Source: Hyaloraphidium curvatum
Lineage: Eukaryota; Monoblepharomycota; Hyaloraphidiomycetes; Hyaloraphidiales; Hyaloraphidiaceae
Length of the DNA: 64,000 nt
Reading direction: 5' to 3'
Assembly: GCA_025558095.1 (NCBI GenBank)
Contig: JAIVFI010000031.1
Location: forward strand, 124,001 to 188,000
Made by a program: the position numbers and the translations under genes. Positions 7,297 through 27,871 of this stretch are shown here, in pieces (positions within the stretch are counted from its first letter, which is position 1; every line of letters begins with the position of its first letter). Below the pieces are notes generated by a model, which searched no databases, had not been told where the DNA came from, and was given only the letters and a program-made list of their open reading frames with translations.

Positions 7297-7836
7297 TTCC
7301 CGGCTTGTACCCCCCCGACTGCGTCTCGCTGCGATGCCCAATATACCCGAGTACCAGGCGGGCGGGAGAGGCGGCCCGGGTGCTTGGAATGTCGCGCCCA
7401 GCGTATCCGCCGCCCCATCTCGAGCGGGGCGGGGATTAAAGAGGGCGCTTCTTGCCGAACAAAGACCGCTCTTTCTTGATGGCGTCCGCCATGCACCGTC
7501 CGATGCTCCTCGGTTGGCGTGGAAAGGCGCTGAACCGTTCGCGGTTCGAGGTCCGCGGCCCGGGGACGGGAAAAGGTCCACGGGGAAGCGCATCGCGCCG
7601 CTCGCGCGCTCGACGGCGTAGATTGTCGATCGAGGAAGTACATGCATAGAGCGGCAGACGACCGTTGCGGCTCGCAAGGCGGTCCGCACGTGAGATGGCC
7701 CGGCGCAAAATTGGGGCGCCACGCCGCCGCCGCAGTCAGCCGCGCGGAAACGGAAAGGATGCCGGTTCTGCCGGCATGTCGCCGCCGATAAACACCGAGC
7801 CTGCCGCGCAGCCATTCTAGAGCTCCCGGCTCCGCG
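7297..7836. other. Intergenic, no supported gene
   Basis: Overlapping short frames on both strands give arginine/proline-rich translations without recognisable motifs or consistent splice joins. A short minus-strand gene cannot be excluded. The right part is presumably the promoter of the sugar transporter. Confidence 0.35.
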
Positions 7837-9375
7837 ATGCCCGCCGACGGCGCTTCCCCCGTCGATGGGGAACCTCCCGCGCCCGACGGAGATTCGGGCG
7901 CCCCCGGCCCCGCAGCCCGGCCACCGGCCCCGGACAAGCCGGAGCCCGACCGGCAACACAGTGCCCTGCAGCTCTCTGTCCTCACGTGCGCCTTCGTGGG
8001 CGTGAACGTGCTCTGGAACTACATCATCCTCTTCGCGACCCCCTTCTTCATCTCGCTGGGCGTCTCCAAGCCCGTGGTGCCCCTCCTGTGGCTCGGCGCC
8101 CCGATTTCGGGCATCGTGGTGCAGCCCTGGATCGGCGCATTCTGCGACGAATCGACCTCCCGCTGGGGCCGGCGCCGCCCGGCCCTGGTCTGGTCCATGA
8201 TCCTCGCGCTGGCCTCGCTGGCCGCCATGGCCACCTCCCGCGCCATCTGGGCCGTCGCCGCGGCGTTCCAGCTGCTCAACGTGGCGGCAAACGGGGTCGA
8301 GGCGAGCTGCCGCGGGCTGGTGATGGACTCGATCTCGCCGGAGCAGCAGCCGGCCGCGTGGGCCTACGTGGGCATGGCGAGCAACGTCGGCACGCTGCTG
8401 ATTAGCGTGGCCGGCGGGATCGATTTTGTCTCGCTTGCGCCGGGGACCATGTCGCAGTTCCAGTGGATGACGGCGCTTTCTGGCCTCTTCCTGGTCGCGA
8501 CGGCCGTTGTCACTGTCTTTGCCGTCAAGGAGACGCCGTACCGCCCGCTGCGCCGCGTTCCGACATTCATGGCCGGGGAATCGGAGCCCCTGCTTTCACT
8601 GGCCCCCCTCCCCGAGCTCTCGTGGGGCTCGCACCTGCAACGCTCCTTCGTCAAGGCCTTCCGCTCCCTCGTGCTCCCCGTCCCGCCCATCCTCTCGCTC
8701 ATCAACACCGCCAGCTTCTGGGGCTGGGGCGCCGGCTCCCTCGTGAGCATGTTCGGCACGGCCTGGGTGCAGCTCCACGCGCCGGACCCGGACCTGGGCC
8801 TCCGCGTGGCCAGCCTCTCGAGCGTCGCCGGGACCCTCCTCGCGACCGTGTGCACCCTCACCGTGCCGCCGCTGGTGCGCCGCCTCCGCGTGCCGATGAA
8901 GTGGGCCTGGGTCGCGGGGAACCTCACCGGCGCGGCGCTGCTCGCCGCCGGCCCCGCGTTCGCGGGGGACATGTTCGCCTCGGCGGCGGTGCTCGCGAGC
9001 ACGGGGTTCTACTGGATGGCGCTGGTCTGGGTGCCCATGGCGCTGCTAGGCGAGTTCGTGAGCGCCAGGACGGCGAGGCCGGGGGAGGAGGAGGTGCTGG
9101 ACTACGACGCGGAGGAGGGTTCCATTGCGGACGTCGTGGACGGGGCGTCGACGAAAGAGCCCCCGGAGGAGCGGGTCACGGCCGGCGGCTCCATCGGCGT
9201 GCTCAACTTCTACCAATCCTTCCCCAACCTGCTCACGATCGCGCTCAGCACCGTTATTTTCGGCGTCGCCGATGACGGCGCGGATACCATGGCGGTCGTG
9301 GGCACGTCCTTGCAGGTCGGGGGGGCCATGGCGCTGATCTCTGCCTTCTATGCCGCACGGATACCCAACGAGTAG
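7837..9375 (+). CDS. SUT-type sugar/proton symporter (GPH/MFS family)
   Basis: A single exon of 512 aa with multiple predicted membrane helices. The hallmark of sucrose-type carriers, RWGRRRP, lies in the loop after the second helix (about residue 110), preceded by WLGAPISGIVVQPWIGAFCD. Other membrane segments include LTCAFVGVNVLWNYIILFAT and VGTSLQVGGAMALISAFYAA. Plant SUTs and fungal homologues import sucrose or maltose with protons across the plasma membrane. The exact sugar cannot be read. The long loop after helix 6 and an acidic insert around residues 405-445 (EEEVLDYDAEEGS) are moderately unusual. No introns, unlike most neighbours. Confidence 0.88.
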   Translation: MPADGASPVDGEPPAPDGDSGAPGPAARPPAPDKPEPDRQHSALQLSVLTCAFVGVNVLWNYIILFATPFFISLGVSKPVVPLLWLGAPISGIVVQPWIGAFCDESTSRWGRRRPALVWSMILALASLAAMATSRAIWAVAAAFQLLNVAANGVEASCRGLVMDSISPEQQPAAWAYVGMASNVGTLLISVAGGIDFVSLAPGTMSQFQWMTALSGLFLVATAVVTVFAVKETPYRPLRRVPTFMAGESEPLLSLAPLPELSWGSHLQRSFVKAFRSLVLPVPPILSLINTASFWGWGAGSLVSMFGTAWVQLHAPDPDLGLRVASLSSVAGTLLATVCTLTVPPLVRRLRVPMKWAWVAGNLTGAALLAAGPAFAGDMFASAAVLASTGFYWMALVWVPMALLGEFVSARTARPGEEEVLDYDAEEGSIADVVDGASTKEPPEERVTAGGSIGVLNFYQSFPNLLTIALSTVIFGVADDGADTMAVVGTSLQVGGAMALISAFYAARIPNE

Positions 9376-9651
9376 ATAACTTGTTTCTAATGCGATGGTA
9401 GAGCTGGTTCATCACTGCGTCGTTCGACGAGCTGATCGAGGCCAGCGGCCAGCGGGCGAATGATGAGGCAGTGGACCTCGACGCGTCGAACTTCCGTCCA
9501 ATCTTCCCGGCCTCACCGCGCCGAATCCACCTCCGCTTCTCCTCTCTGGAGGGAGAGAGGTTGGTTAACTCCTCCGTGAATGCTCAGGACCCGAGAAAGC
9601 CCTGCCCGAGAGCAATCCACACTCACCCATTCAGGTTCACGCCGGGTCGTT
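9376..9651. other. 3' flank of the Fanzor gene, with a hairpin
   Basis: No gene is seen. It contains a perfect 7-bp inverted repeat with a 6-nt loop at 9541-9560 (cctctct, ggaggg, agagagg), about 92 bp past the stop of the Fanzor-bearing gene. In Fanzor loci the guide-RNA scaffold is commonly encoded at or past the 3' end, so this is the place to look for one. The assignment is speculative. Confidence 0.3.
9541..9560. repeat. Perfect inverted repeat, 7-bp stem and 6-nt loop
   Basis: The arms cctctct and agagagg are exactly complementary, separated by ggaggg. It could be an RNA hairpin in the 3' UTR of the minus-strand gene ending at 9652 or part of a guide-RNA scaffold. The pyrimidine/purine-rich composition makes chance occurrence plausible. 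Confidence 0.4.
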
Positions 9652-10723
9652 TTATCCGGCAGTTCCGCGCAAAGCAGCGGGGTGGGTGAAGGTGGCAGGC
9701 CGCTGGCCGGTGGCGATGATGTGCAAGAACACTCGAATGAGGCACAGCGTCGCCGACCGATTCTTGTTGACTTCGAGCTTGTCCTTGAAGCCGTGCTTGT
9801 CCGAGCGGCCGGTACAGGACGGGCAGACCTTGTGCTCGACGTCGCCCTTGCGCAGAGGGTACGCCTTGAGTTCCGAGAGGCACGTGGGGCACCGCTGCGA
9901 CGTGTTGTGCTCGCCGAGCATCACCACCAGGAAGTGGCGCGAGAGCAGCTCGGCGATGCCGCCGCGGTACGGCATCTTCGACGACGAGCCCTGGCCAGCG
10001 CCGCAGAGAACAATGGGGTTGGGCACGGCGGCGATGCGGTCGACGGCCTGCTCCGCGGCCTCGCGCGCCGCGCGCTCCGTGATCCTGAGCTCCTCCGCGG
10101 TAGGCTTGCGGCCACCGTGCGCGCCCTGGGCCTGCCGGACGGCGGCGTTGTAGGTCTCGACATACGTCTTGCGCCGCCACAGGGCCTCGCAGGCCTCCGT
10201 GATCCAGTTGACGATGGCGTTGCTGCGGGCCTGGAAGGCGCGGAACCGGTAGGCCTTGGCCAGCTGGGTTTTGCGGCTCTGCGCGTGGTCGAGGAGGGGG
10301 CCGGCACTGCGGAGGAAGGCGGCACCTGGGCACGGGAAAGAGGTTAGCACTGCGGCGCTCAGAAACGCGGACGACAGCTCGCGCACCGGCCATGACGCCG
10401 TCCATGGGGTACGGCGACCTGGAGATCCCGCGCAGCCCCTGCGACATCGCGCCATGTGCCTCCCACCAGGCCGCCGACCTCGCCTCCTCGTCGCGCGCAC
10501 GGTACCCGGCGGACGAGAGGGGCTCGAACTTGCGGTGCACGGTCAGCTGCTCCAGCTGGCCACCCTCGCCGCGGAAGTGAACGGTGACGCTGATCGTGTG
10601 GCCGCCGGTGCCGGGGTCGACCGCGACCAGGATCGCCTCGAGGGCGAGGCTGTCTGCCGCCTCGACGGTCGTCGAGTGCCTGAAGAAGTACGGCACGTCC
10701 TTGCCATCCGTCTGCAGCTTCTG
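9652..10723 (-). other. Fanzor/TnpB-like RuvC nuclease domain with zinc ribbon
   Basis: This is the C-terminal part of the giant gene. A TDG motif (about 10703-10711) precedes RuvC-I, LVAVDPGTGGHTISV, with the catalytic Asp codon at 10616-10618. After an intron come a helical segment and the RuvC-II-like NPIVLCGAGQGSSSK. The canonical Glu position there is occupied by Gly/Ala. A Glu sits just before the TS motif in GEHNTSQRCPTC (codon 9910-9912), matching the relocated Glu known in Fanzors. A CPTC/CPSC zinc ribbon follows. RuvC-III reads EVNKNRSATLCLI, where TnpB and Fanzor proteins have Asp after the basic residue. Here it is Asn (codon 9760-9762). Fanzors are eukaryotic RNA-guided DNA endonucleases derived from transposon TnpB. 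Confidence 0.75.
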
Positions 10724-13700
10724 ATATCGGTGGCCGCCGGGGCCGGATGGATGGCGACAGCAAAGCTGTCCTTCCAGGACCACGATTCGCGCGTGGTCAT
10801 GCGTGCCGGCGGCTCCGGCGCGAACGTGGCAGCACGACGAGGAGCAGCGGCTGGATATCGGGGTCGAGCCGCAGGCCGGGGGCCCGCGCGGGGCGGGAGG
10901 AGAGGGAGGAGTGGGTGGAGGAGCAGGAGGGATGCCGGCGGTCGCGCTCGCGGCCTCGTTGTCCGCCGCCGGCGCCGTTGCCGTGGTCGCGGCCTTGATG
11001 TGCCGATGCCCGGCGAGTTCGGGCAGCGTGCGGCGAAATGCGTTGCTGGTCACCTGCGCATATTGCTCAGGCTGCGCGACGGACCACGTGCACGACGTCG
11101 AGCTGGCGGAGCAGTGGCTGCGCGGCACCGGATGGCGTGAGACTCTGGCGCCGGCACGCACATCAAAGCTGGAGACGCACCCGCAGGTCGGCATGCATCC
11201 GTCGCAGTCTCGCTTTGCCGCCTCGCAGGGCTTGCATGTCGGCAGCTCGTACACGCACGCGCGGTTGGCCGCGGCACAGTCGCTGATCGCGGGCGTCAGC
11301 AACTCGAGATTAGGCATATCGGCGTCGTTGATCGTGCTTGACACCTACGAGCAGCCGGGGTACAGCCGATCGCACTTGCCCTTCTTGCAGCCCCTGCAGT
11401 CGATTGGCCACCGCGGGTTGTCGCCGAGGATCGGATCTCCCGCCTGCCTTTGAGCGGTCGTCAGCATCTGCCCGCAGTCAGCTGCCGCTGCGCCAAGTGA
11501 CCCACCGCAGTCTTGGTCCGCACGCCGCCGAGTTGGTTGTAGCGGTGCGGATGGCGCTGGTTGGTCACAAGTATCCGCGTTTCTGTGCCGTTGGACTGGA
11601 AGTGGTTAGACTTGTAGGGCTCGAACCTGTCCACGTGCGCGTCCCCGCGGTCCATCGCCTGACCGCGTACGACGCGGGCAAGGCCGGGGATCATCTTGTT
11701 CATGAGCGCGGGGAGGCCGGGTGCCGTGGCGGTGTCGATCGATGTTTGCTGATTCTGCTTGTCCAGGGCATCCTCGACGGCCTTGATGCGCGGCACTTTC
11801 CAGCCGCGAACGACGTCGGCAAGGGCAAACGCGACGGGCTTGCCGTCCATGTCGGTGCCGCCCTCCTTCAGCCGATGCAGATGTCCGATATAGGCGGAGA
11901 TCCAGCGCCCGAACGCCGAGTTGTCCACGGGCTGGAAGCGGTCCCCGGCATGGAGCCGTGGCACGACGTTCTGGCGCAGCTCGCCCGCCACGACCCCGCG
12001 GCGGACCATCACCAGCTGCTCCACCAGAGTCTGCTTGGTGAGCTCGGTTGCGCCCAAGCCGACCTCGGTGCGCACGTCGTCCTTGTGCTTGGCCGTGCGG
12101 ACACCTCCGTCCGCAACCGTGAGCAGGTTCAGGAACAGGTCGAAGGCGGCCTCGATCGGCCCGCGCTTCTCTGCCGACAGGTCCGCGGTGAAGCGCTCTC
12201 GAAGACCGGCAACGTCGCCCTCCACCTCGCCGACCAGGATGGTTGCGCGGGCGTAGATGTCCAGCACCGTCTCGGCGGGCGTCTCGTCCGCCACGGCCCC
12301 GGCAGTGTCCGCGTCGTCGTCGCCCGTGGCCTGGCGCACCCCGGCGAACTCGACCTCCTCCGCCTCCTCGTCTCCCTCTTCTTCGGTCGCGACCGCGCGC
12401 GCGCCGCGCTTCGGCGGAACGAGGACGCAGCGGAGGCGGTAAGCCAGCGCGTTGATGAGCCCGCGCGGGACCCCGGGCGCGAACGCCTTGGAGAGGTAGG
12501 CGTGCGCCTTGTTGTACACCAGGCGGCGGAGACCGTCGCGGGCGAGGCGCGTGAGGGTGGCGAAGAGACGGCCGGAATGGATCTGCCCGAAAGCACCGGG
12601 GAACAGCTTGTAGGAGTGGTGAATGGTCTCGTGCTCGATGAACGAGTCCGAGATTGCCAGCGACGCGGCGGCGAGCGAGACCATGAGCGGGGTTCCGGAG
12701 GCGTCGGAGTCGGGAAAGTTCGCGTAGGCCCGCGGGAGCAGGCGCTCGATCGCCAGGCGCGCACCCTCGTCGACGTTTGCCGCGGCGCGCCAGGAAGGAC
12801 CGACGACGGCGGCGTCGCCCGGCACGAGGGAGGGGTCCGGGATGAGGTTGATCGCGGTGATGGAATCCGCGAGGTGCGACGGGAGCTTGACCCCCGAGAT
12901 CGGGTGCGGGGCCATGGCGACCTCGACGTCGGTCTGCCGGATGAGCTCGTCGTTGGTGACGGGCTGCAGCCGCAGGCTGGCGACGCCACCAGTGGAGAAG
13001 GGAAGCGGGGTGGTGGAGACGTTGCGGCCGGCAGAGGCGGCATCTAGCACCTTGCGCATGTTGACGCCGAGGCCCACGAGTAGCGCGGGGCGGAAAGCTC
13101 GGAGCTCGTGTCGCAGGAACTCGAGCTGCATGCGGCGGTGGAGCGCCATCGCGCGGCGAGCCTCGTCCTTGGTGAGCTCGGGGGCCTTGTCCCGACCGAC
13201 GCGGAGCATTAGGGGGAGATCGCAGCAGCAGCACTCGTCGCCGTCGTTCTGCGCGGAGGCGTCAGTCGAGTGCTCGGAAGGTTAAGGCAATCAACACCCA
13301 CGAAGAGCATCGGGCACATCCTGTTGACGTCCGCGAACACGATGTTGCCCAGAACGCGGCAGCGCGCGGCGGTCGCAGCCTGCCAGTGAGGGTCCTCGGG
13401 GTCCTTGAGGGGCACGATCTCCTTGATCACGTCGATGTCGGCCTTGATGGCCATGATGTCCTTCTCCAGGACCTCGGCGGGGTACCGACCGGGATCGCCG
13501 CGCTGCGTCGATGTGTCAGCACGGGTGAGGGTGTGTGTGCTTCCGAGCGACGGGGAGCCCACCTTGGCGCGCTCGAGGGCGCTCTGCAGCCGGTGCAGGG
13601 CGACGACGTCGAGAACGTTGAACAGGAGCTTGTTGGTCGGGTTGAGGAAGTGGCGGCGGGAACCAAGGAGCACGTCGAGCTTGGGGCAGTTCCCAAAGAG

Positions 13701-16700
13701 CAGCGTGACGGGAAGCGAGGGGTCAAAGGCCGGCGCCGACAGGTCCCCGTACACGAAGCGGCGGGTGGGATCGTCCAGGGCGCCGCCGCGGTGGAAGGCC
13801 AGCCCAGGCTCTCGGGCGAGCACGCGGAACCTGGCTTCCACGAAATCAACAAAGGCAAGGCCGCGCAGCTGCCTGCCGGCGGCTTCTTGCATCGCGGTGA
13901 GGAGGCGATCGCTGCCCATTGCGATGCTGGTTTCGCGCATCGCCTGCCGATAATCGCGCCGGAGGTCGGGGTCCACGGGCTGCGGCGCCGGGATCTCGGT
14001 GCGGTCGGGTCCCGCATTCTCGTCCGTCGCAAATGCCAGCTCGGCAGGCAGCCCGAGGATCTCGTCCGCGCGGTCCTGGCCATCCGCCCCGCGGGGACTC
14101 CAGGATCTGAGCGGCGCCAGGCGGAGTATGTTGCGTTGCAGAAACAACCTCTTCCTTCCGTCCTCCTGGTCGGTTGAAATGGGCTGGTCCAGGTACTCGC
14201 GCGCGAGGTCCGGGAAAATGCGGCACAGAGTTCCGACCTCCATCTCCGCCGCCCGCTCCAGATGCGGGTTGCGCTGCCGCGGCGGCTTGCCGCTTTTCGC
14301 GAGATCCTCTGCGTAGGCAGCCCCCGCGGCCGCCTTCTTCAGCTTCAGCCACTCCTCAAAGCCACTGCGGATTCGCACCGGGTCCTCGTCCGCTTGCAGG
14401 CCGATCCGGGTTAGTTCGGCATCCAGCTCCCTGAGGAAGGCGCGGATCTCGGGGATCCCCGGACCCATTCGAGCTGGATCTCCGCCGCCCTCGAGCCTCA
14501 GCGCGGTGGCGACCGCCGCGTACGTATTATCAATTAGGGCTTCCGGATCGGAGCAGTTGAGAGACGGAGGCACTCCCGGGAACCACGCAGCCCGCTGCTC
14601 TTCGTTCAAGTGCAGGTACGTGTCCAGGACGACGCGGAATGCGGCATTGCCGGCCATCAGCAACCTCTGCTGCGTGCGGAACGCCAGCGCCATGAAGTCG
14701 CCGAACTTGCGCCTCTCCGCGAGCTCGACCTCGGCCTGCTTCTCCGTGCCGACCATAGCATGCTGCTTCCGCATAAAGTCCTCGATGTCCGCGTCCGACG
14801 GCCTGCCGTTGCCCTGCCGCACCTGCGCCCAGATGAAATCCTTCACAGGGCCCGACCAGGGCTGCACCAGGTGGTCGAGGACGGGGCCAGGGATCGTGAC
14901 GGGGCTGCTGCCCGCGCCGCCGCCCTTGCGCGCGTCTTCCTCCTCCTCCTCTTCCGCCTCGTCCATCTTGGCGTCCTTCGGATCCAGCTTGAAGCCCTCG
15001 TCGGCCTTCCCGCGGCCGCGCTTCTGCTTCTTGGGCGCGGGCGCGGGAGCCGAATCCTGGCGACCTGCGCCCCGCGCGTTGCCCGACGCCGGCGCGTGAT
15101 CGCCGGGAACGTGCTCCCAGCGCAAGCCTTCGGCGTCCACTTTGCGCAGCCTAACCAACAGGCGCGGCCATTCGGCCCCACGACCCTGCTCCGGTGCTCC
15201 CTCTCGATCGCCCGCGGGTTCCCCTGCACCAGACGTCTCCTTGGTCGCGCTCCGGGGATCCACAGTCGCGTGCAGCGGGTCGAACATCGGTTCGGCCCTC
15301 CCCTTGCCCTTGGCCTGCCTCGTTCTCTGCCTAATCTCGTCGTCCTCTGGAGCTTCGTCGTCGTCCTCTTCCGGATCCGGACCCGCCGCGGGCGCCTCGT
15401 CCATCGGCACGTCGTCCACGGCAGTCGCGGCGCCGCCGGCGGGGGCGTCCTCCATCATCGCCTCCTGAGCCGGTTCGGGCGATGGTGAAGCCTCGGGAGG
15501 GTCCAGCTCCATGGGCGCCGGCGCGGCAGCTCCCGCTGCGGTGCCTCCGGGGGGTCCTGCGTCCGCGGCAGCTGCCGCACTCCCGCCCGAGCTCCCGCTA
15601 GCAGACCCGGAGGCGGCTTCCGCCGCGACTGCCGCGCACACCGCGTCCCTAGCGGCGCCCGGCGTGGCGGTCGAACGGATCGCGGTGCTGCCGACAAGGA
15701 AGATGTAGCCGTCCCCGTCGGGCTCCTCCTTGGCCGCGTTCCAGGCGTGCTTGCCGACGACCTCGCGCCTTTCCTCCTCGTTCTTGGCCCGCCGCTCGAA
15801 CGCGGCCTGGATGCCCTCGCCCATCTTAATGGCGACCTTGACCGCGGCGTCTCGCTCCGGAGTCATGGCCTGACTGGACGCCGGTCCCGACGACGATCCC
15901 GAAGTCGGGCCCGCGCTGGCCGATGCCGATGCGCCGGCCGAAGGGTCGGCCGTCTGCTGCGGGTCCACCGGTGCCGGGGAGGAAGGACCGGGCGCGGCAG
16001 CGGCGGGCAAAGGCTGCGCGAGCGCGGCCTGGCGACGGTTGTGCGTGAGCTCGATGTCATCAACCGCCGCCGTTCGCTCCCCACCTTCAGGCTCACGTAC
16101 TGGTGCCGCCGTCGGGGCCTCGGAGACGGGGTCCCGGCGATGCTGCCCGGAACGGGCCGCTGGCCGAGCTTCTCGAGCACGTCGATGAGCTCCTCCTTCA
16201 TGCTCTCGCGCGTCTTGGCGTCCGCCTTCGTGAGCTTCTCGCCCGGGTCGTACCGCCCGTCGAGCCTCCGAAGACCGCTGCGCAGCTCGTTCCGCCGGGC
16301 CTCCAGCGCCTCCCGGTGGTCCGCAGCGAGTGGATCCATGGCAAAGACCTCGGCCAGGGGCACGAGGAGGGGAAACATGGCCTGCGCCGACGGCGCGACG
16401 TCGAGCGGAAGCCGGAGACGGCGCTGCGGCGTCCCGTCCGCCCGCTTGCCCTCGGTCTCGTGGTAGATGCGGACCAGCTCCTCCTTGTCGGCCGCGATGA
16501 GATCGCGGGGTTTGGGGGTGACGAGGTTGTTCTGCACGACCATGTCCAGGCACGTACGGATCCAGCCGGACCCCGGAACAGCTTCCCGCGCCTGGAGCCA
16601 CGCGGCGTCAATGATCGCCTTGTTCGCCCGCAGCACGTCCCGGAACCGCTTGGCGCCCTGCGGGGAGGGACAGTGAGCCGCCGTTCCCTTCAGCCTGATC

Positions 16701-19700
16701 GCAAAAGCTCCGAATCAACGACACCCACGATGAAGTGGCTCGTCGTGTTGTGGCTTCCCGCCACGAGCACCGATGCCTTGAGCTCCTCCGCGGTCACGTC
16801 CAGGTGCGCCAGGATATCCTGCTTCAGGAACAGGCTCGGCGTCGCCCCCTTGACGTCGGTGAACAGATCGGCGATCCCGTGTATGGCGCCCTCGCGGACG
16901 GCCATGTACAAGGGGTCGCGGTCGCTCGTGACGACCAGGCGCAGCTCCTGTTCGCCGTGGGAATCCAACCGCAGCTCCGCGTCGCGGACAAAATGGCCGT
17001 CAGCCTCAGCCACCACGAGCTGAACATCCGTCGCGCCGAACATGGCGTGCGCAGCCCGGAGGCGGTCGCGGACGAGGCGCGAGAGAACGAGCATGAGGCC
17101 GGGCCCCAGGCGAGCGGAGCTTGCAACGTGGCCGGCGCGAGCCGTTGCTAGACCTGGATGGAATGAGATGAAGGCGGTGAGCGGGAGCCGTTTTCGGGGG
17201 GTGGTCCCTTGTGAGACCCACGATTGGCACCGGTACGATCGTCCGGCCGGTCGAAGGCCTTGCGCACGCCGTCGGCGCCCGGCTTGCCCGCGACCTTGAG
17301 GAAGCCCTTGAGGGCGCCGTTGAAGCTCTCCGAGTTGGCCGTCCCGCGCTTCTCGGCCTCGTGCACCTGCTTCCGCAGGGCGTAGAACGCGCCTCCTTGC
17401 TGCTGCTGCTGCTGCTGCTGGCCGTCGAACACCTCCGGTACCAACTGCCACGGCTCTGCATCCGCTGCCCCGGGCAACGCGATCGGGTGCTTGCCCGCGC
17501 GGGCCTGCTGTGTTCCCTGCGCGGACGGCTTGGGCGCCCCGGTCTCGAAGTAGACGACAACGGTGTCGCCGCGGGCGCGAGACGCCGGCGTTGCCCTGAG
17601 CAGCCGCTTAAGCTTGTCCACGAACGCGCGCGCGAGCTCCCCCAGGCTGTCCTCCACCCAGGGGAGGGTCTCGTCGGCCGGCGGCAGGGTCATTGAGTCC
17701 GCACGCCCAAAGAGGAGCGGCGCCAGGGCCTGCCGCGCCTTGGCCTCGTAATCCGAGCCGAGGATGGAATGCAGGATCACGGAGGCGTCGACGTAGAAAC
17801 AGATCCGGTTGAAGGGAATGCGCTGCCGGGCGAGGTGGTCGTCGATCTGCAGGCGGTACGATGCGCCGCCGTGCAGCTTCATCGCCACGGGCCAGATCTC
17901 CTTGTTGGTCGCGGTCTTGCCGCCGCCGTGCTTGCCGCCGATGGTCTGCACCTCGCCTTCCGTCAGCGTGCCGGTGAGGCCGCCGCCGGCCTTCTTCTTG
18001 CCGCCCTTGCCGCCTGCCCGCGCCGTCGTGCCCTCGGGGGTGTCCATGGCCGGCAGCTCGACGCGTGGGCCGCGCGCGGGGGTTGCTGCAGCAGAAGTTG
18101 CCGCGCGAGAGGGCTGGGACGGAGAAGGCCCGGAGGAAGCGGGCTCGGAGGGAGACGGAGCCGCGGCCGGGGTGGAGTGCGCGGGCGAGACCGAGGGGCC
18201 GGGCGCGGCACCAGCATTGGCGTTCCGCAACCCCGCCCTGCGCGAGGTCCGTTCCGTGCCCACCCCCCTGCCGCCAGTCGTCACCTCCGGATCCGGGTCG
18301 CTGTCCTTGTCGTCGCCCTCGTCCTCGTCCTCCGACCGAACCCGCTTGGGCGTCTTGGGCACCTGGCCGCCCCTCCCACCCCGACCACCGCCCCTGCCTC
18401 CCCTCCCCCGCCTTCCTCCGCTCGAAGTCGCGTTCTTGGCCCCGCCGGGTAGGCGGACGGTGGCCAAGAGGGTGGCCTCGTTCCAGAGCAGGTCCCCGAC
18501 CTGCTCGTCCCCGACCTGCCCGTCTTTCTCCAGGACGAGGCCGCTCCGTGTGCGTAGGTAGAAGGACGTCTTGGGGACGCCGAGGCGGGCTGCGACGGAT
18601 TTCTGCGCGCGGATTGGGAGGTCAGCAAGACAGCCGGGTGCCATGGTGAGAATTTGGCCCACCTTGAGCGCCGAGATCCGCAAGTCGGAGCCCACGCGGA
18701 CCGTCAGGGTCTTGTTCAGCGAGTGCAGGCCGTCGCTGAGGGTGATGGGGAAGGAGGAGACGAATAGGGTGAACTTGCGAAGCCGGCGGGCAAAGACGGA
18801 GCTGCCGGCCTGGATCCCGCACTGGCCCAGCGACGCTGCGGGGCAAAGTCGCCTGCGCCGATGGTGGTCGGAAAAGAGGTCGACGGCAGAGACACGGCAG
18901 CCGATGCGGTCTGCGACGAGGACCTGTCGCGATCGGGAATGGGCGTAGGAAGGGCGTCAACTGCTTGCGCCTCGACAGGAATGGATCGCGACGAACCTGG
19001 AGATCAGACACCGTATCCGAGGCGCGCATCGAGATCTCAACCCCGCGCGAGGCGTTGTGCCCAGCCACAACGTCGGACGGGAGGTGCAGAATGAAGAGCA
19101 CCTCCGGCTCGTCGACCTCGCCCGCCTCGGCGGCGGTCCACGGGCCGGCCAAGGTGAACCGCGAGAGCGGTCCATTCCAAGGGACCCGGGGAGCGGGCTC
19201 GTCGTCGGCGCCACCCGCAACAGGCAGAGAGCGCGCGCCGGCGTCATGAAGAGGAGGTCCGCTGGGCGGCGCCGCCTCCGACGCGACTGCGGGGCTTCCG
19301 CCCTCTCGCCAAGCGGACGACGACGGCCGGGTGAGGGGCGTCGGGGGGTCGTCGTCTCCGTCGCGGCGCTCTGGGCCTGCCGCCACGACCGCAGAAACGG
19401 CGGGGTTGGGGGAGGGAGGTCGGGGAGCTGGTCGAGAGGCTGGGGTCCAGGGCGCGGGCGCATTGTCGACAGCTCCGGCGACGACCTTGGCCGCAACAGC
19501 GTCGGCAGCCAGTGGCCCGGGCCCTGCGGCAAGCCCGGCATCGGCAGCGCGCGGTGCGGGTTCGGCGGCGGAGGCGTCCGGCTCGGAGGGAGGGTGGATG
19601 GTCAACGACGGAGCCGGGATGAGCGCGGCGCCCGAGGCCGGCCTGACGGGGGGTGTCCACGAGGCCGGAGGCGTCTCCATCACACCACACTGGTGGTCGT

Positions 19701-21228
19701 GTGCGGTAGCATCGGCGACGGCGGCGGAGGGCGCCGCGGAGGCCGGACGCCAGGGGCCCGACATCTTGAGGCGCCAGGTGAGCGCGGCGCCGACGAACGT
19801 TCCCCATTCGGAATCTGAACAAAGAGAGGCGGCACGTCAGAGATGGCACCGAAGGGCCCACATGGCAGCTCACCGGTCAGGTAGTCGAGCTTGCCAGGAC
19901 GGTCGCACATGCGGTCCCTGAGCTGGAAGGCAATGACAGCGTGGCGGAGCTGGGTGCGGGCAAGCTCGGCCTGCGCGCGCCTGGCGAGCTCGGCATCGCA
20001 CATGGCAACGACGTCTGCGCCAGCGGACGAGTGGGGAGCGTCAATGCTGCGAGCTCCATGCGATCCGGAGCGATCAAAACCCACCGGCTGCGGTGTGACG
20101 CCCCAGCAACTTCTCGGCGGCGCGCGCCGCGCAAGGAGACCCGAGGCGTTGGGCCGGGCGAGACCGTGATGACGGCGCCGCAGACGGCGCGACATCTTTG
20201 GCGCCGGCCCCTTGCACTTCGACAGGCTGCGCCGGGTGCGCGGGTCCCGGGCCGCTGGCAGGGGTCGGAGCGACGCGGCGAACAAGGCGCACCCCGCTGG
20301 CGTCCCCATGCAACGATGCGGATGGTGAGGACGGCCGGGCGACGTGAGCTCCGAGGCGGTGCACAGATCTTGTCGACTTCGGCAACGACCCAGAGATTCG
20401 CGCAGGTAAGGCGGGGAAGTCGCTCGAGCGGCAGTCGGGGCTCCCGTGTCCGACGAGAAAGACGGCGACCAGAAGCGCGACGACGGCCAGGAAAGCGGCG
20501 GCGACTCGCCGGGTAACGAGAGCCGTCCAAAGACCCTTGGCAGCGGCGGCGACCCCTTCGAAGGCTCCCTTGGCCACTCCCTTGGCGATGCCGGCAACTG
20601 ACTGCATCGTGATATCCAAGAACGCCGCGAAGCCGAGCAACACGCCTAGGGCCATGCACAGACCCACAGCCGCGGTCGAAGCATCGTAGCTAACGCGTCG
20701 CGGGTGATGCTCAGGGTGCTCCACCTTGCCCGCGGCGACATCCTCGACCCTGGTGGATCTCCTCGCGTCCCGGGCCTCGGCCTTGAGCTGCCTCGCGAGT
20801 TCAATCTGCACCCTGCGTTCGGTTCTCCGTTCTCGGGCAATGTACTGAGCCACCCGCTTGTCCAGAACCGCGGCGCGGACCCGGCAGTAAGTCTGGAACA
20901 GGCCCTCGTAGTCGCACTTGCCGCCGTCGTGGAGGGCCGACGCTCGCTTGGCGGCGACCTCCTCGTCGGCCGTCTTGCGCGCGCGCATGTTCATCTTGCT
21001 TGCCTTCCCCCGGGGAACGGCCCTGCGGGGCGACGTGCCGTCTTCGGGGTCGACGAGCTCGCAGATCTCGAGCCGCAGCGCCGCGGCCTCGGACGTCTTG
21101 TCGTACATCTCGTCGAAAAAGCCCAAGATGACGGACGTCGGCGCCCCCTGAAGCGCCGCGCTTATGTCCTCGGGCGGAACAGCACCCGGGTCGGGCAGGT
21201 CGACTGCGGCCTCGGCGGCCCCGGCCAT
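9652..21228 (-). CDS. Giant multidomain protein: membrane segments, ubiquitin-like module, FEN1/XPG-like nuclease and C-terminal Fanzor (TnpB-like) domain
   Basis: Proposed exons are 21228-20085, 20014-19874, 19814-18997, 18923-17222, 17153-16729, 16657-16097, 16028-13302, 13248-11506, 11443-11349, 11282-10387 and 10325-9652, about 3,640 aa. Every join agrees in phase, mostly with GTGGGT donors. Approximate domain order: charged helices; two hydrophobic segments (about residues 186-205 and 235-253); a Pro/Ala-rich linker; a ubiquitin-like module ending RLPGG (about 862); a FEN1/XPG-like nuclease (about 1,060-1,450); an acidic/Ala-rich linker; helical regions; a possible UDG-like segment; a Cys-cluster; and the Fanzor RuvC/zinc ribbon at the C-terminus. 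It looks like a mobile-element or domesticated nuclease. One caution is that it could be two or three adjacent genes. The Pro-rich stretch near 10800-10950 may hide another intron. Confidence 0.6.
16640..17810 (-). other. FEN1/XPG-like 5' nuclease fold inside the giant gene
   Basis: The domain spans exons four to six. Its N-part has the metal-binding strand ICFYVDASVILHSIL. The next conserved acid appears as VVVYFETGAPKPS, followed by basic residues; FEN1 has VFDG there. The I-part has VVAEADG (FEN1 uses GEAEA) and VVTSDRDPLYM (FEN1 uses SxDxD). It ends with a helix-turn-helix-like VLVAGSHNTTSHFIG, which corresponds to FEN1 GSDYxxGIxGIG but lacks the Asp. Most metal ligands are therefore present, with one Asp-to-Glu and one lost Asp. 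A poly-Q insert lies between the N- and I-parts. FEN/XPG enzymes cut branched DNA. The match is by motif order read by eye. Confidence 0.65.
17397..17420 (-). repeat. CAG/CAA repeat coding eight glutamines
   Basis: Eight Gln codons (seven CAG and one CAA on the minus strand) sit in the linker between the two halves of the FEN/XPG-like nuclease. This is the largest triplet repeat I noticed in the window and is likely length-polymorphic. Confidence 0.8.
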
Positions 21229-23384
21229 GGTCAGAATCCGGAAAAGATGAGATCAGAACACGGTGAAGAGCACGAGGTCGCAGAGATCTGGCGCGGGAAC
21301 GGCCGTGAGCAAAGGCCGGCGAAAGGTTCTGCCGGCTGGGCCCGAGCGCCGGCTGCACGGACCGCCGCGGCCGAGGGAGCCCCCGCAAACCGCAGCTTGC
21401 GACCCAAAGGTCGCAGAACCGGGCCAGACCGGGTCTCCGCCGGCGGCAGGCGCGGATGGCCGGGGCATAAAGTGCCCGAGATGGAGGTCGCCCCAGGCCA
21501 ACCCCCCCCCCCTCCGCGGCGCTGCCCGGCCGCGCCAGTCGCAGATCAAGACAAAAAAGCTCGGAAACTTACGCGACTGCTGGCGCCGGAGGTCTGGTGC
21601 GTGAAAGACGACACGGGGGGAGTCCTTTGTTGACCTTGTTTGCAAGAGGCGTCCTGGTCCCACGAGCATCAGGTCGCCACAGGCGCGTCCGAGCTACATG
21701 CAAGCCGCTTCCGAGGCAAAAGATCCTCCCTCAAAACAAAGAAACGTCCTAGAATTCGAAACGAAGAAGATCCGCCGCATGCGAGAGAGCGACGCCCGCC
21801 ACGTCACCCGTCCAGCTACCGTTTCAGAGACTCAGGCAAAACCACTATTCCATCGATACAATGGCGAACAATAGCAAGAGAGCATGCGAGTAGACGAGGA
21901 CCGGATGACACCGCCGTCGCGGCCGCTGAGCTGCCCCTAGCTGGGGTTTGCCCGTTGGCCTTGCCGGCGGCGGCGTCCCGTGCCGCTTGCGCACGGACGG
22001 AAGAAATGGCAGTGTGTCCGATCCGGTGGCACGCGATGCCGGCCGCCCGAGGCAACGAGTTTGACGACGGTCCAGGCATCCAAATGGTTCCGGGAATGAG
22101 CAGCGGGCCGCAACACCGAGGAATCGCGAAAGGGGCGGATGCGGTTCCTAGCGACGACGAGTCAGCCGACACCGCGGATAGCATCGCGGCGCGGACACTC
22201 ACATTGGCGGTTCACGGGCACTCTGCTGCCGATATACGCCAACGCCAACGCGTGGGGGAGTAGAGGGCGCTCTGCCGGATACGATCGAGGTCCTCGGCGT
22301 GCCGTCGCAGGAGCCGCGCTCCGCAGCGCCGCGTCAGAATCGTGCCCGGGAGACGCCGACTTATAGCTAAAAGAAAAGAAACGGTCCCGCAGAAGCAGCG
22401 CAACGCGCTCCCCAGCGTCTCGCCGCCGCCAGAGACGGTGGCACGGAGCCCCCTCGACAGGGTACCTCCTCGCAGCCAAGAACAGCAACGCAAGCGCGGC
22501 CATCCAACCACCGCCGGCGGCGACGAGGCCGCACAGGCAGGCGGTCGAACCGGCGGCGCTCAAAGCTCCGCAGGCAGCGACAACTGGCATCGGGCGCACA
22601 CCCCATCCGGCGGCACAGGAACAAGGCGCCCAAGACAAATCCACGCCGACATTCTTCCTGAGCGGCCCCCAAAAAGAAATCTCCGAGCAATAAAACGACG
22701 GGAGAGCCGCGCCGACGGCCCGCGCCCGACCGCCGTCTGCCCGGGTCAGCTGCCGTCGCGCAAAACACCCATCGACGGGCACCACGGGGCTACGCGATGC
22801 CGCCGAGGTGTGTGCAGCCACGTCGCTTGGTCGAACACCGCCGGCAAGGCCTGCCGCCGCCGACGATCGCTCCTGACCGCGGTGGGGCCCAGCGTCCGCG
22901 ACACCGCCCCGCGACCGAATCCCGGCGCCATCGCCGGTAGAGGCGCCGAGAAATGAACCAGCTGAATGAAAACCGATGCACAGCGTGGCGCGCCGTGCTC
23001 TGCAGCGCGTGTGAGGGGTTCGGAGGTTTGGCTGTTTGCGCGAGTCGTATATTGCCGTTTCTCCAAAGCTTGCCCACCCGGCCCCACCCCGCACACAAAA
23101 CTGGGCGCCGAATCTCCCATCCCCCAGGCCACGGCAAAAGCAGGAACCAATAGGAAATACCCGGTAAGGGGGAAGGGGGAGGGGGGGAGGGAAAAGGGGG
23201 GGGGGAAAGAAAGGGGAAGGAAAAGAAGGGGGGAAAGGAGAGAGGGGGGAGGGGAAGGGGGGAAGAGAAGGAGAAAAGGAAGGGGGGAGAAAGAAAGGGG
23301 AAAAGAAGAAAGGGGAAAGGGGAGGGGGAGAGGGGAAAAATCTCCGCTTCTCCTCTCTCTGTCGCACCTCTTTCCTCGGACGAT
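21229..23384. other. Gene-poor 2.1-kb flank of the giant gene
   Basis: No supported coding region. Short frames on both strands are Arg/Pro/Ala-rich. One minus-strand stretch (about 22430-22620) translates to two hydrophobic segments (VAACGALSAAGSTACLCGLV, MAALALLFLAA), but no start, splice pattern or homology supports a gene. The segment probably holds the promoter of the giant gene and, at its right end, that of the Maf gene. The homopurine tract is listed separately. Confidence 0.35.
23161..23340 (+). repeat. Homopurine (G/A) tract of about 180 bp, G-quadruplex prone
   Basis: The plus strand is almost exclusively G and A, with many runs of three to eight G separated by short A-containing spacers. 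Such mirror-like purine tracts can form G-quadruplexes or triplex DNA. It ends about 45 bp upstream of the Maf ATG, so it may lie in that promoter or 5' UTR. Confidence 0.9.
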
Positions 23385-24114
23385 TTGGAACGCGTGTCGC
23401 CCTCCGGAATCGCGATGCTCCCCGCCCGCCTGGCCCACACGCGCGTCGTCCTGGCGTCGGCCTCGCCGCGCCGGAAACAGATCCTGGAGGGCATCGGGAT
23501 CGCCGCCGAGGTCGTCCCGAGCACCTTTCCCGAAACTCTCGATAAGGCAGCGTTCGCGTCGCCCGCGGGATACGTGCTGGCCACTGCAGAGGGCAAGGGG
23601 AAGGAGGTGCTGGAACGCGTCGCTGCGGCGGGCGGGGAACCGCCGTTGGTCGTCGCAGCGGACACGATCGTGGTGCTCGGGAACGAGATCCTGGAGAAAC
23701 CGGAGTCGCCCGAGGCGGCAATGGACATGCTCTCGCGGCTGAGCGGGCGTTCCCACACGGTGCTCACGGCCGTCGTGCTGCTCCACCCGGATCCGCGGGC
23801 GCCGGGCGGGCCGCCATTAAAATCGGCGTTCGTGGAGGAGACCGAGGTGTTTTTCGCCGAGCTGTCGGAGCAGGAGGTCGAGGCGTACGTCGCGACGGGC
23901 GAGCCGATGGACAAGGCGGGCGGATACGGTGGGCTCCTTCGACACGTGCCTCGTAACACGGAACTGATTTTCTTATCTGCTTTTGCCAGGCTACCAAACC
24001 GGCGCGGGCTCGCTGCTGGTGGAGCGCATAAACGGCTGCCACTACAACGTCGTGGGATTCCCTACGCACCGGTTCGCGCGGGAGCTTCGGCACTTCCTCG
24101 ACAAACTACCGTGA
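23385..24114 (+). CDS. Maf-like nucleoside triphosphate pyrophosphatase
   Basis: Exons 23385-23928 and 23990-24114 join in phase to about 222 aa. The Maf signature is complete: VVLASASPRRKQILEGIGI near the N-terminus (catalytic/phosphate loop SxSPRR), the conserved Asp in VVAADTIVVL, GRSHTVLTAVVL, and the KAGGYG/YQTG loop created by the splice, followed by LLVERINGCHYNVVGFP. Maf enzymes hydrolyse dTTP/UTP or modified nucleotides to monophosphates (house-cleaning). The ASMTL-type C-terminal methyltransferase domain is absent. An alternative start is the Met at 23415, eleven codons in, which matches the usual family start better. Confidence 0.93.
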
Positions 24115-24448
24115 AGCTATTCAAGCCTGTTACGGCGTGTTCAGTCAGCAGGATCCCGGACGGCCACGGCTAGCCACGGTCGACGACGCGGAATCCAAGC
24201 TCATGTCAACGGTAACCTCGCACGAGGGTCTCGTTTGCTTGGCATGTAGGGACTGGAGCTGGCCCTTCACATCGAGACATCGAACTTCTGGGCAAGAGGA
24301 CCTCCAAGTCCTCGGCGCCGCTGGACAATCCTGAGCACTTCAGCATGGAGCGTTGTGGGGCCTGCACGGACCGGCGATTGGCAACGGTGTGATCGTGAAT
24401 GAAACCACCGAAATGTCACATCGCACAGCTGCCCTTATCATGTACAAT
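24115..24448. other. Intergenic between convergent genes, no gene seen
   Basis: About 330 bp between the Maf stop and the stop of the zinc-finger gene. Base composition is less GC-rich than the coding DNA. No RNA gene or repeat was recognised. Confidence 0.4.
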
Positions 24449-26020
24449 TCATCCTCTCTCAAAGTCAACGAGCGATTGCAACTCCTCATCCCTCACTAGC
24501 TCACACCTCCCACAAGTGCGCGGCTTACGCGCAATGTAGTGCTCCATGATGGCCAAGTTGAAGTCCGGGTCCCCAGCCGCGTCAAGGTTCTTCAGCCACT
24601 GCGTCCGCGGGGTAACGACCCTGAGCGAGTGGATTTCATCGATCCCATCCATGGAGAAGGGCAAATCTCTCGGCAGCTCCTGCATGAAGCCCTGCACGAG
24701 GCAAAGTTGCTTCCTCACGTCGAGATCTGCAAGAACGCCGGTCAATATAATGGCTTACACGTCGTTGCAAGACACGCTCACTTTCCAGGTGTTGTTCGTC
24801 TTCAAGGATCGACTTCTTGTCGAGCTTCCTTGCTCCCATACGCATTGCACGGCACCAAAACAAGAACAGTTCCGCCGTCTTCTTCTTATACTGTTCCCAG
24901 ATCTTGGGAAGCGTGAAGGCCACCCGGCCCAACGAAAGCCACGTGGCCCAAATGGTCTCTTGGAAGTTGTGGTCGAAAATGCAACGGAGCTCAAGGCACC
25001 AGTCGGCCCACGACCAAAGCCAATCATCATAGCGAGGCAGCGGTCGCTTGTGCACGTTGTGGTTACGTTCCTTGAACTCGGCCAAAGTGCGGGGCGTGCC
25101 CGGTGCGGCGAGAATATGCGATTCAGGCAAGATGGGAGCATGGTACGTTTCGTCCACGTAGTCCAGCAGTTTCTCGACATCGTCAAAAAGAGCTCGAAAC
25201 TCTGTGGCACGCCGCCGGATTTTCTCTAGAAGCAGTGTCAGCGTGGAAATGCGCTGACCAAACTTGACAGCTTACGGATTTCTTCGTGCGCGGCAGAGCA
25301 CAAGGCGCCCCATTGAGGGGCGCTGCTAAAGTTGTTGCTGGCCTTCATTTGCATCAGGTCCATCACCAAGGCCGGGACCTGGGCCTCGGGAACTTCCGCT
25401 TCCCCGTTCCCTTCGCTCAGCGGTGCCACGTTCCGTGTGCGAAGAACCTCCAGGCAACCATTAATGAGCACTTCCAGTGGCGCGTTCAGCAGCTTGTCGA
25501 CAGCATCGATACTGGGGTCGCAACGCAGCCATTCGATGGCGGCAGTCGCAACGGCATCGTGCTCAGCCGTCCACGGAGCAGACTTTGTGCGAGCGACGAC
25601 TTCGGCTCCGAGGTTGTCATAGTATCTCACAACAAGCACGGCGCTATGTCCTTCCAAATGAAGGGCGACTGACGATGGGCTCTCGTACTTGATTGCTTTT
25701 CCACATATCCTGCACATGAAGACCCGATTGCCTCCTCCGTCGAGGTACGACTCCTGGGACTCGCAGCCCAGTAGAACGTCCTGGTGCCCACCATCATCGT
25801 TGCGGAGGTAGAAGCGACGAGTTGCGATCCCCCCGAGGCCCTTCACGACAAAGTCCCGGCCGATGGGCCACCACCCAGCAACGGGGAGAGCAGTTTCGTC
25901 GTTCGGTGCCACCACTCTCTTGCCCGTAGACCGCTTGCGCGCGTCGGCCGGAGCGACGGGGTTCTCCCCAGATAACTCAATGGACCGCTTCCGCGACACG
26001 CTCTGGCCGTGACGCGACAT
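24449..26020 (-). CDS. Zinc-finger (C2H2/BED-like) protein of unknown function
   Basis: Exons 26020-25276, 25225-24776 and 24726-24449 join in phase to about 490 aa, using GTAAGC and GTGTCT donors. The N-terminal 40 aa are basic (KRSIELSGENP, RKRSTGKRVV). A single zinc-finger-like motif appears at FMCRICGKAIKYESPSS followed by LHLEGH, i.e. C-x2-C and H-x3-H with a spacer longer than a classical C2H2 finger. The remainder is helical and rich in Trp/Leu (DDWLWSWADWCLELRCIFDH), ending with a second Cys pair, CGRCELV. BED-type fingers are common in hAT transposase relatives, but no transposase core is visible. A DNA-binding role is possible; the family is unknown. Confidence 0.65.
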
Positions 26021-26327
26021 TATTTCCCAGGCAGTGAGGGTCTGAGAGCATGGGAATGCTGCTACACGACTTACAGTAGATCGTCGATCGATTCCGCGGA
26101 TCCGCATGAATCTCCCTTCAAAATGACTTGTCTTGCTTCTTCTTGCTGTTTTGCTTTGGTGTCGGCTGATGTCCTGCCCGAGAAGCGCCGTACCGCTCGG
26201 GAACGTTGCATGCGAGGAACCTGCCAGGTTCCAACCTGCCAGGTTCCGACCGCAGCGCTTCCCGTGGACCCTTCCGAAACGCAAGCGACCTCTCTCGCAA
26301 GAGACACTCTCTTGCTTTCGCGACAAC

Positions 26328-27132
26328 ATGGCCGCAGCCGGCGTGAACATGGCCCTCACGATTCCCTACGTCAGTCGCCTCAACGACCTCCAGTACATCG
26401 CCGGTCGTCGCGACGATCCCACCAAGACCATTCGCGATGGGCTGATCACCCTTAAAGCCGGCAACCCGGTCTTCAACCTCTACACGGCCAAGGCTGCGAC
26501 TAGAGACTTTGGCCTGTACCATCTTGGGGCCACTCATGCCGTTGTCGTCTTCCGCGGGACGGACCTGGGAAACGGTGTGCCCCAGATCTTGCGCGACGCA
26601 CTGCACGACGCACAGCTCTTCTTCAACTCGGTTCCGACCCGCACCGAAGCTGCGCGCCTCTTTATCACCCAGAACTGGGCTCACTGGACGAATGGCCGCA
26701 CTCTGGTCTTCGTCGGGCACTCTCTCGGTGGTCGTATCGCTGCGGAGCTGACCGCCCACTTCCCGAACTCTTCGGCCCACATTTTCAAGTGAGCGTTTCC
26801 TCTATCTCAAGGTTTCCCCCCACTGAAGCAGTGAATCGCCAGCCCCGCGTACCCAATCCATGACGGCAGGCCTCCTGCACCCCACCTGCAGCGTGTCGTC
26901 GCCTATTGCATCAAGGGCGACTGGGTCTGGCAGTCCTTCAACGGGCCCCACCGTTTTGTTATCCCCGTCACGCAGAAGGACAAGCACGCCCTTTCCAACT
27001 TCATCAGGTAGTGTGCTTCAGATGCGCTCGTGGTATGTGCTGCGTACCGGTCTGCATTCCCGCACGCCCTTGACACTCTTTGTCTTACGCAGTTCGAATA
27101 AAGGAAACGAAGCAATGGGAGCAGGCGGATAA
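26328..27132 (+). CDS. Class-3 lipase-like alpha/beta hydrolase
   Basis: Exon 1 (26328-26789) encodes an N-terminal region with THAVVVFRGTD, the conserved strand before the oxyanion site, and the nucleophile elbow TLVFVGHSLGGRIAAELTA (catalytic Ser in GHSLGG). The GTGAGC donor joins 26844 in phase, giving IFNPAYP, the typical post-elbow strand, and then RVVAYCIKGDWVW, where the catalytic Asp is expected. The frame either stops at 27011 or splices again (donor GTAGTG at 27007) to 27132. The predicted length of 210-230 aa is short for fungal lipases, and there is no signal peptide, so an intracellular lipid hydrolase is likely. Divergent from the zinc-finger gene (308 bp apart). Confidence 0.78.
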
Positions 27133-27871
27133 CGAAAGGACCCTATTCGGTGGGCAGGGGGAACCGAACTCTATCCGGAAACATGGAGAAGCCCAGACAT
27201 AGGGGTATTGACTTTGATGGTGATGTCTACTAGCGGACGTCACCTGATCTGTCGCGATTTTGTTGTACAACATTGGGGAAAGCACTACAGTTGCAGTTTC
27301 AACTCCGCGATCAGCGATTGCCCCGTGTCACCGGGTTCGACACCGGTCACCGGTACGTCAGGCTCACCTGACAACCAGGTTAGCATCTTTGCCTGGCCCG
27401 TTCTGTCCATCAATGCGTGTCCGCTCACCCCAACGGTGGGTCGGTTGGAATCGGAGAAACAACAATAAGCATTCTGGGCGGACAACTCTCGGCAAGATCA
27501 AACTCACGCCTAACCTCCTATCTTGTCTTTCATTGGACCGCAGGTTGGATTCAAACTCATCTGCAACCATACGAAAAGAGCTTGATTTCGGACTGTAAGG
27601 TCACCTGCAGCTTCCAATCCAAGACACGGATGTAGTGAGCCTGGCCCAAAGAAGGAGAGCCACTGGCGTGCGCGACCGACAATCCGTCCCGCGCGGATGC
27701 GACGTGCCTGAGCCAAACTGCACGCCTCCCTTGGAGAGTGGACACGGTCGGCACCAGAAGCATCACGGCAAATTCGTCCGTCGCATTAAACCAGCAAAGA
27801 CGCAGCCTACTAACGTAGAGAGTTATCGGGGTATCGCATCCCGCCCGACCCGGCCTTCCGCTTCCCGCCGC
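27133..27871. other. Intergenic between convergent genes, no gene seen
   Basis: About 740 bp of lower GC content. Small open frames are scattered and unsupported. A T-arm-like sequence near 27331 was examined and rejected as a tRNA. Confidence 0.45.

Follow-up and report, generated by a model that had tools for sequence, protein, structure and literature searches.

The described systems closest to the locus reported here are the Fanzor1 elements CRe-1, CRe-2 and CRe-3 of Chlamydomonas (Bao and Jurka 2013, PMC3627910), whose pattern of copies is ascribed, in the accessible part of that paper, to one-ended Helitron2 copying. A Fanzor protein pattern, DPG-x(120,160)-E-x6-CxxC-x(12,18)-CxxC-x(4,8)-D, is given in the accessible part of PMC10711439. 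According to the available text of PMC10432273, the omega-RNA of a Fanzor can overlap the stop codon of its gene, as some known ones do, and that of SpuFz1 runs 14-15 nt past its conserved part. We have analysed a stretch of 64,000 nucleotides from Hyaloraphidium curvatum (contig JAIVFI010000031.1, positions 124,001 to 188,000; called the window), which carries a mobile element of approximately 13.5 kb with a single gene for a protein of 3,646 amino acids (aa). We lean towards reading it as a large, CRe-like, Fanzor1-bearing element that is copied from its 3' end and whose one gene makes one giant FEN-like/Fanzor protein. The copy of the element in the window is called W, residue numbers are those of the W protein, and all features of W given below lie on the minus strand.

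One gene in a dispersed mobile element

The locus is one gene (9652..21228) making one giant protein, which is under purifying selection. The gene was rebuilt from its splice sites as eleven exons, at 21228-20085, 20014-19874, 19814-18997, 18923-17231, 17153-16729, 16657-16097, 16028-13302, 13248-11506, 11467-11349, 11282-10387 and 10325-9652, separated by ten introns of 38-77 nt. The spliced product has one stop, which is terminal. An earlier note on this DNA had proposed eleven in-phase exons on this strand and a product of about 3,640 aa; the exons were reproduced and the outer coordinates agree. Its argument that the agreement in phase goes beyond chance is borne out by the C8 copy, in which GT and AG are present at all ten introns, no stop occurs in 3,639 compared codons, and the ratio of nonsynonymous to synonymous substitution rates (dN/dS) against W is 0.284 for the whole protein. 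The insertions and deletions in the C8 coding span are multiples of three, with the exception of one 4+2 pair which sums to six. When W and C8 were compared in nine segments, dN/dS was lowest at aa 1041-1420 (0.056), was 0.107 in the RuvC part, and lay between 0.19 and 0.72 in the other seven. The least certain of the donors is that of intron 4 (GTGCCA), because an alternative in-phase donor lies just six bases away.

The domain order of W is also found in the diverged copies C14 and C8b. C14 is colinear with W from residue 30, and C8b from residue 687, in each case to the C-terminus and with approximately 26-62% identity in the individual segments; across its retained 3' part, C5 follows the order of W too. 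Exon 1 (20085..21228) contains two hydrophobic stretches, and its residues 30-157 match C14. The same C14 open reading frame (ORF) matches residues 627-702, which ties exon 1 to the rest of the gene.

The element as a whole spans 9546..23040. From a common 5' start at 23040, C8:319067-332501 aligns with it end to end at about 95% nucleotide identity, and the 3' end of W (...CTCCAG at 9546, uncertain by one base) is common to C15. The genome (31.9 Mb, 55 contigs) was searched in three ways. The C-terminal exon has relatives on nine other contigs, the 3' stem-loop pattern described below occurs at twelve places, all of them element copies (none with the reversed control), and DNA probes for the 5' end and the FEN part found only W and C8. 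The 3' part alone is retained in C15 (470 bp), C17 (2.6 kb), C5 and C6 (approximately 165 bp), and C11 and C30 have internal deletions. The copies C2, C13, C30, C11 and C6 form a family, called family 2, which is very distant from family 1.

Target-site duplications (TSDs) were looked for at nine copies, giving two clear cases, one candidate and six copies without. In C6 the TSD is (G)AGTAATTTCGTACGGA, taken directly from the sequence, with a length of 16 bp, or 17 with the shared G; in C30 it is (G)GAATCCGTCCCAT, with 13 bp, or 14 with the shared G. Both are flush, starting right after ...GTAG. The candidate, in C2, is 10 bp and offset by 5 nt, and no convincing TSD was found at W, C8, C15, C17, C11 or C5. 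The 5' junction of C30 has 60 extra bases, which are pyrimidine-rich; in C6 the 20 bases separating TSD and stem-loop are also pyrimidine-rich and only loosely alignable. Between 5000 and 30000 of the window there are no terminal repeats of 30 nt or more beyond low-complexity or chance pairs.

The dispersed copies, the common 3' end, the TSDs and the loss of 5' or internal parts support a mobile element, and so, as far as mobility goes, the self-mobilising element that was one of two suggestions made in the earlier note. The other, a domesticated DNA-processing machine, is not supported, because the element is multicopy and has decaying copies. A model of the element as a giant intron (a lariat model) was set aside because the common 5' end does not start with a donor.

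The Fanzor and FEN-like parts of the protein

By most of the published signature, the C-terminus appears to be Fanzor. W reads DPG at aa 3346-3348 (10610..10618, pattern comparison), the RuvC-I motif, and EHNTSQRCPTC...CPSCTGRSD from residue 3561, ie the RuvC-II glutamate, a C4 zinc finger and the following aspartate (aa 3561-3598, 9799..9912). This is the sole match to E-x6-CxxC-x(12,18)-CxxC-x(4,8)-D when the window is read in six frames (127,996 codons); in the 385,920 codons of 20 loci there are five matches, all in element copies. Neither C17 nor family 2 gave a match, and in family 2 the glutamate and finger are present with the aspartate at x3. DPG was found in W, C14, C8b and C5, so the RuvC-I motif is present in family 1 only. 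The wider spacing D-X(125,275)-[TS][TS]xx-C4, in the accessible part of PMC3627910, accommodates W, with 217 residues. As a separate observation, family 2 has a 51-nt intron-like gap from the RuvC-II glutamate motif to the zinc finger, with none there in family 1.

Several results count against a Fanzor identity. The RuvC-I position reads DVG in C2 and DFG in C30, the DPG and the Glu of W stand 212 residues apart, against 120-160 in the pattern given in the available text of PMC10711439, and the RuvC-III position, RDxNAA, reads NKNRSA in family 1 and EKNVSA in family 2 (seven of the seven aligned copies). RD occurs earlier than this position in C14 and C5 only. The C-terminal exon has no relatives in the protein database, and the RuvC alignment and region H3 (described below) none among at most 8,000 candidates; a model of the RuvC fold had a predicted local distance difference test score (pLDDT) of 41, too poor to use. 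Foldseek on that model gave nothing at E≤0.001, its best match being to glucokinases (E 0.007). All Pfam matches to the C-terminus of W (zinc ribbons and a Cas12f1-like TNB) are below the cut-off, the best among four copies being Zn_ribbon_TFIIB at E 1.2e-5; NCBIfam held nothing relevant, and the viral contigs searched held no relatives. The Fanzor assignment made in the earlier note is largely supported: W agrees in DPG and E-x6-C4 finger-x4-D, and departs in RDxNAA and the 120-160 spacing.

The order of acidic motifs typical of FEN1, XPG and EXO1, compared with loci L001, L002 and L004, is followed upstream in W: VDAS, VVVYFE, EAD, TSDRD, GSHNT. The putative N-lobe (17232..17957) has VDAS at aa 1079 and VVVYFE at 1156; the putative C-lobe (16729..17151) has EAD at 1315, SDRD at 1342 and GSHNT at 1398, with a profile comparison that is in register and weak. 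The D and E of the N-lobe and the EAD, SDRD and GSHNT of the C-lobe are kept in C14 and C8b, and EADxH is conserved. Family 2 has the equivalents IVDFSW, HELT, GEFD, TVDTD and GGTDNT, which provide a candidate for each metal-binding acid. Five XPG-type sequences (L001, L002 and L004 from the host, L052 and L053 from metagenomes) were combined into a profile, which scored 23.6 against the two-family alignment, with the C-lobe motifs in register; the best of 100 column shuffles was 21.4.

On these comparisons the upstream part is probably a FEN/PIN-type nuclease. We do not put it more strongly because the score against family 1 alone (18.9) falls below that of an unrelated RuvC1 segment (19.3), the comparison segments in this test being family-1-only alignments. 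Other results also count against a FEN-type nuclease: in family 1, E replaces one D and H the last D among the seven metal-binding acids; hhalign gave the profile comparison a probability of 1.6% (P 0.032); and the best HMMER match with the XPG-type profile (E 0.09) lies off the motifs. Pfam XPG_N and XPG_I did not match the exon pieces searched, a PDB sequence search found no relevant chain, and an AlphaFold model, of the C-lobe only, had a pLDDT of 34.7, too poor to use. The FEN1/XPG-like fold claimed in the earlier note therefore keeps its motif order, its conserved acids and the dN/dS of 0.056 in that region, and gains nothing from Pfam, PDB or AlphaFold.

Between these parts are two conserved regions without a known domain, H2 (aa 1961-2503, 13302..14930) and H3, a single exon of 581 aa (11506..13248). 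An SNG stretch in H3 may be the WED end of Fanzor/TnpB. A cysteine-rich, Zn2Cys6-like cluster (11177..11398) is complete only once intron 9 is removed, and a Pfam Zn_clus match which spans that junction (E=0.0022) is below the Pfam cut-off. The cysteine series is present in C14, C5, C8b, C17 and C8 and absent in C2.

The 3' end and other features of the element

The stop codon is overlapped by a conserved stem-loop (9641..9660), which has a 5-bp stem and a 10-nt loop and is the feature with twelve matches in the genome. In an alignment of ten of the twelve copies (nine distinct), 45 of 45 cells of the stem are paired. Two of the five pairs are altered on both sides; these compensatory changes represent few independent events, because both fall between families 1 and 2. 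None of 500 shuffles reached the observed value in three of five measures, which thus beat the shuffles, and the other two did not (304 and 476 of 500 reached it). Folding of single sequences, with z-scores of -2.1 to -2.6, gave the stem-loop in W, C2 and C14; weighing against it, the minimum-energy fold of C8b is without it. Rfam gave just two matches, both to microRNAs, below threshold and lying outside the gene.

The stem-loop is followed by an intron-like stretch (9546..9626) with a donor GTGAGT (9626), GTTAAC (9569), a pyrimidine tract and a final AG. In all twelve copies the order is stem-loop, CTGA and donor, the donor being GTGAGT in eleven and GTACGT in C8b; in W it lies 26 nt past the stop. 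Six copies end in a splice-acceptor AG, which is part of GTAG in C6, C30, C13 and C11 and of CCAG in W and C15; the base after CCAG is also shared by the last two. The final 4-14 bases are lacking in C2, C8 and C17, divergence sets in within the pyrimidine tract in C5 and C14, and the 3' end of C8b is undefined, there being no close copy. A donor after the stem-loop and an AG at the end of the element mean that terminal splicing could join a putative guide-RNA scaffold to the flanking host sequence. The overlap with the stop codon and the extension described for known Fanzor omega-RNAs suggested this idea of splicing as the link between scaffold and guide.

Some further features were recorded. 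A conserved non-coding 5' region (22160..22577), possibly a regulatory or RNA element, has 73-83% nucleotide identity to C14, and one part of it occurs twice there. The family 2 loci L044, L043 and L041/L042 share the 3' stem-loop with family 1 and also combine a FEN-like part with a Fanzor-like end. A lone 45-bp stretch (L049, C1:1157782-1157826) is 100% identical to window 9573-9617, at the element 3' end; both its ends are cut within the element, and we have no explanation for it. The element is flanked by an MFS transporter ORF (7792-9372) and a Maf-like ORF (23154-24170), both on the plus strand. The GC content of the window in 2-kb steps is 0.57-0.71, with low blocks at 24001-28000 and 50001-52000 (0.57-0.58).

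Alternative explanations and comparison with known systems

Two or three adjacent genes, in a row by chance, were left open by the earlier note. In their favour, C8b has no match before residue 687 and the single transcript is one predicted from genomic DNA. Against them stand the ten in-phase junctions, the intron borders kept without stops in C8, dN/dS below 1 in nine of nine segments, the identical order in C14 and C8b, the C14 ORF which links two N-terminal stretches, and the Zn2Cys6-like match across an exon junction. Separate genes were rejected on the colinear C14 and C8b copies and the C8 selection data, and we consider them very improbable. More room must be left for the view that the upstream part is a conserved domain of another kind, nucleic-acid-binding or otherwise, whose FEN/PIN likeness reflects chance or convergent motifs. 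It draws on the lack of database or structural support, the weak hhalign result, a family 1 score not above the RuvC1 segment and the two altered acidic positions. Motif order and spacing, family 2 candidates at all acidic positions, conservation of EADxH and SDRD with the lowest dN/dS, and a two-family score above every shuffle speak against it, and we regard it as possible and somewhat doubtful.

The 3' end could likewise serve only mRNA 3'-end formation, by splicing into the host for polyadenylation, with no guide RNA. The position of the donor, shortly past the stop in W and after the stem-loop in every copy, fits such a role; the compensatory stem changes, the conserved loop and a position matching the stop-codon overlap of some Fanzor omega-RNAs (in the accessible part of PMC10432273) do not favour it, and we rate it a serious possibility, falling short of an even chance. 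As for copying, target-primed reverse transcription by the enzyme of a long interspersed nuclear element (LINE), acting in trans on an unspliced RNA ending at the AG, would account for the 5' truncation, the 13-17-bp TSDs and the extra bases in C30, and the genome has at least 152 RVT_1 matches. Introns are retained, however, in C8 (ten of ten) and C17 (intron 9), there is no poly(A) at the copy ends inspected, the similar CRe pattern is ascribed to Helitron2 in the available text of PMC3627910, and three Helitron_like_N matches are present here; we view the LINE route as doubtful. Either route is possible because both kinds of match exist in the genome. RVT_1 matches occur in evenly spaced series on C11 (approximately 11.1 kb), C12 (2.03 kb), C36 (1.24 kb) and C37 (2.01 kb), which suggests tandem arrays.

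Under the preferred reading, a CRe-like element copied from its 3' end, the stem-loop region would be both the transposition end and the scaffold of the omega-RNA. With RNA running into the flank as its guide, the Fanzor part would direct cutting of the empty site, and insertion of a 3'-primed copy would give branched DNA, which the FEN-like part might trim or nick. Candidates for the copying enzyme are a Helitron-like Rep and a LINE reverse transcriptase in trans. We think it improbable, if worth stating, that the Fanzor RuvC has lost the final acid of its catalytic site (Asp replaced by Asn in the seven aligned copies), that the fused FEN-like nuclease does the cutting and that the guide RNA arises by splicing; since the two final bases of the element form the terminal acceptor, splicing would then join the stem-loop scaffold straight to the host flank as guide. 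With a conserved splice donor next to the stem-loop and an AG at its end, the element offers a concrete, testable model of how guide RNA could be produced by a eukaryotic element.

No description of a FEN-Fanzor fusion was found in titles and the opening parts of abstracts, a scope from which subscription papers mostly fell away; to that extent this agrees with the earlier note, which knew of no described Fanzor with a flap-nuclease partner. If the preferred reading is true, an RNA-guided nuclease is fused with a branched-DNA nuclease in one transposon protein, a natural system with target choice, cutting and processing in one chain.

Compared with FEN1, XPG and EXO1, W has the same order of acidic motifs, without a significant Pfam XPG or PDB match, and family 1 has His for the last Asp. 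With Fanzor1 and TnpB (accessible parts of PMC10432273 and PMC10711439) it shares DPG, the Glu six residues ahead of the C4 finger and the Asp afterwards, and it has a candidate for their structured 3'-end RNA that overlaps the stop codon. It differs from them in NKNRSA for RDxNAA, in the longer DPG-to-Glu spacing, in its long upstream regions and in its size, with 3,646 aa where SPu-1-1p has 633 (accessible part of PMC3627910). An uncharacterised Fanzor-encoding repeat of Auxenochlorella is, in the available text of PMC12636532, multicopy in a eukaryotic genome, as is the element here; that text gives no structure for it. The closest likeness is to the CRe elements, as described in the accessible part of PMC3627910. 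They too encode a Fanzor in several exons, and their copies mostly preserve the 3' end and show truncation at the 5' end as well as internal deletions. Their TSDs also vary, at approximately 7-19 bp (clear here in C6 and C30, candidate in C2), and some of their 5' junctions carry extra bases, as that of C30 does. A point against the likeness is that the T-rich tetranucleotide before the CRe 5' TSD is absent at the two clear TSDs here, where GAAT (C6) and GAAC (C30) are found. That description, to which the comparison is confined, mentions no giant protein or nuclease fusion in its accessible part. If the preferred reading holds, the one-ended Fanzor1 elements of Chlamydomonas would be extended to a much larger kind.

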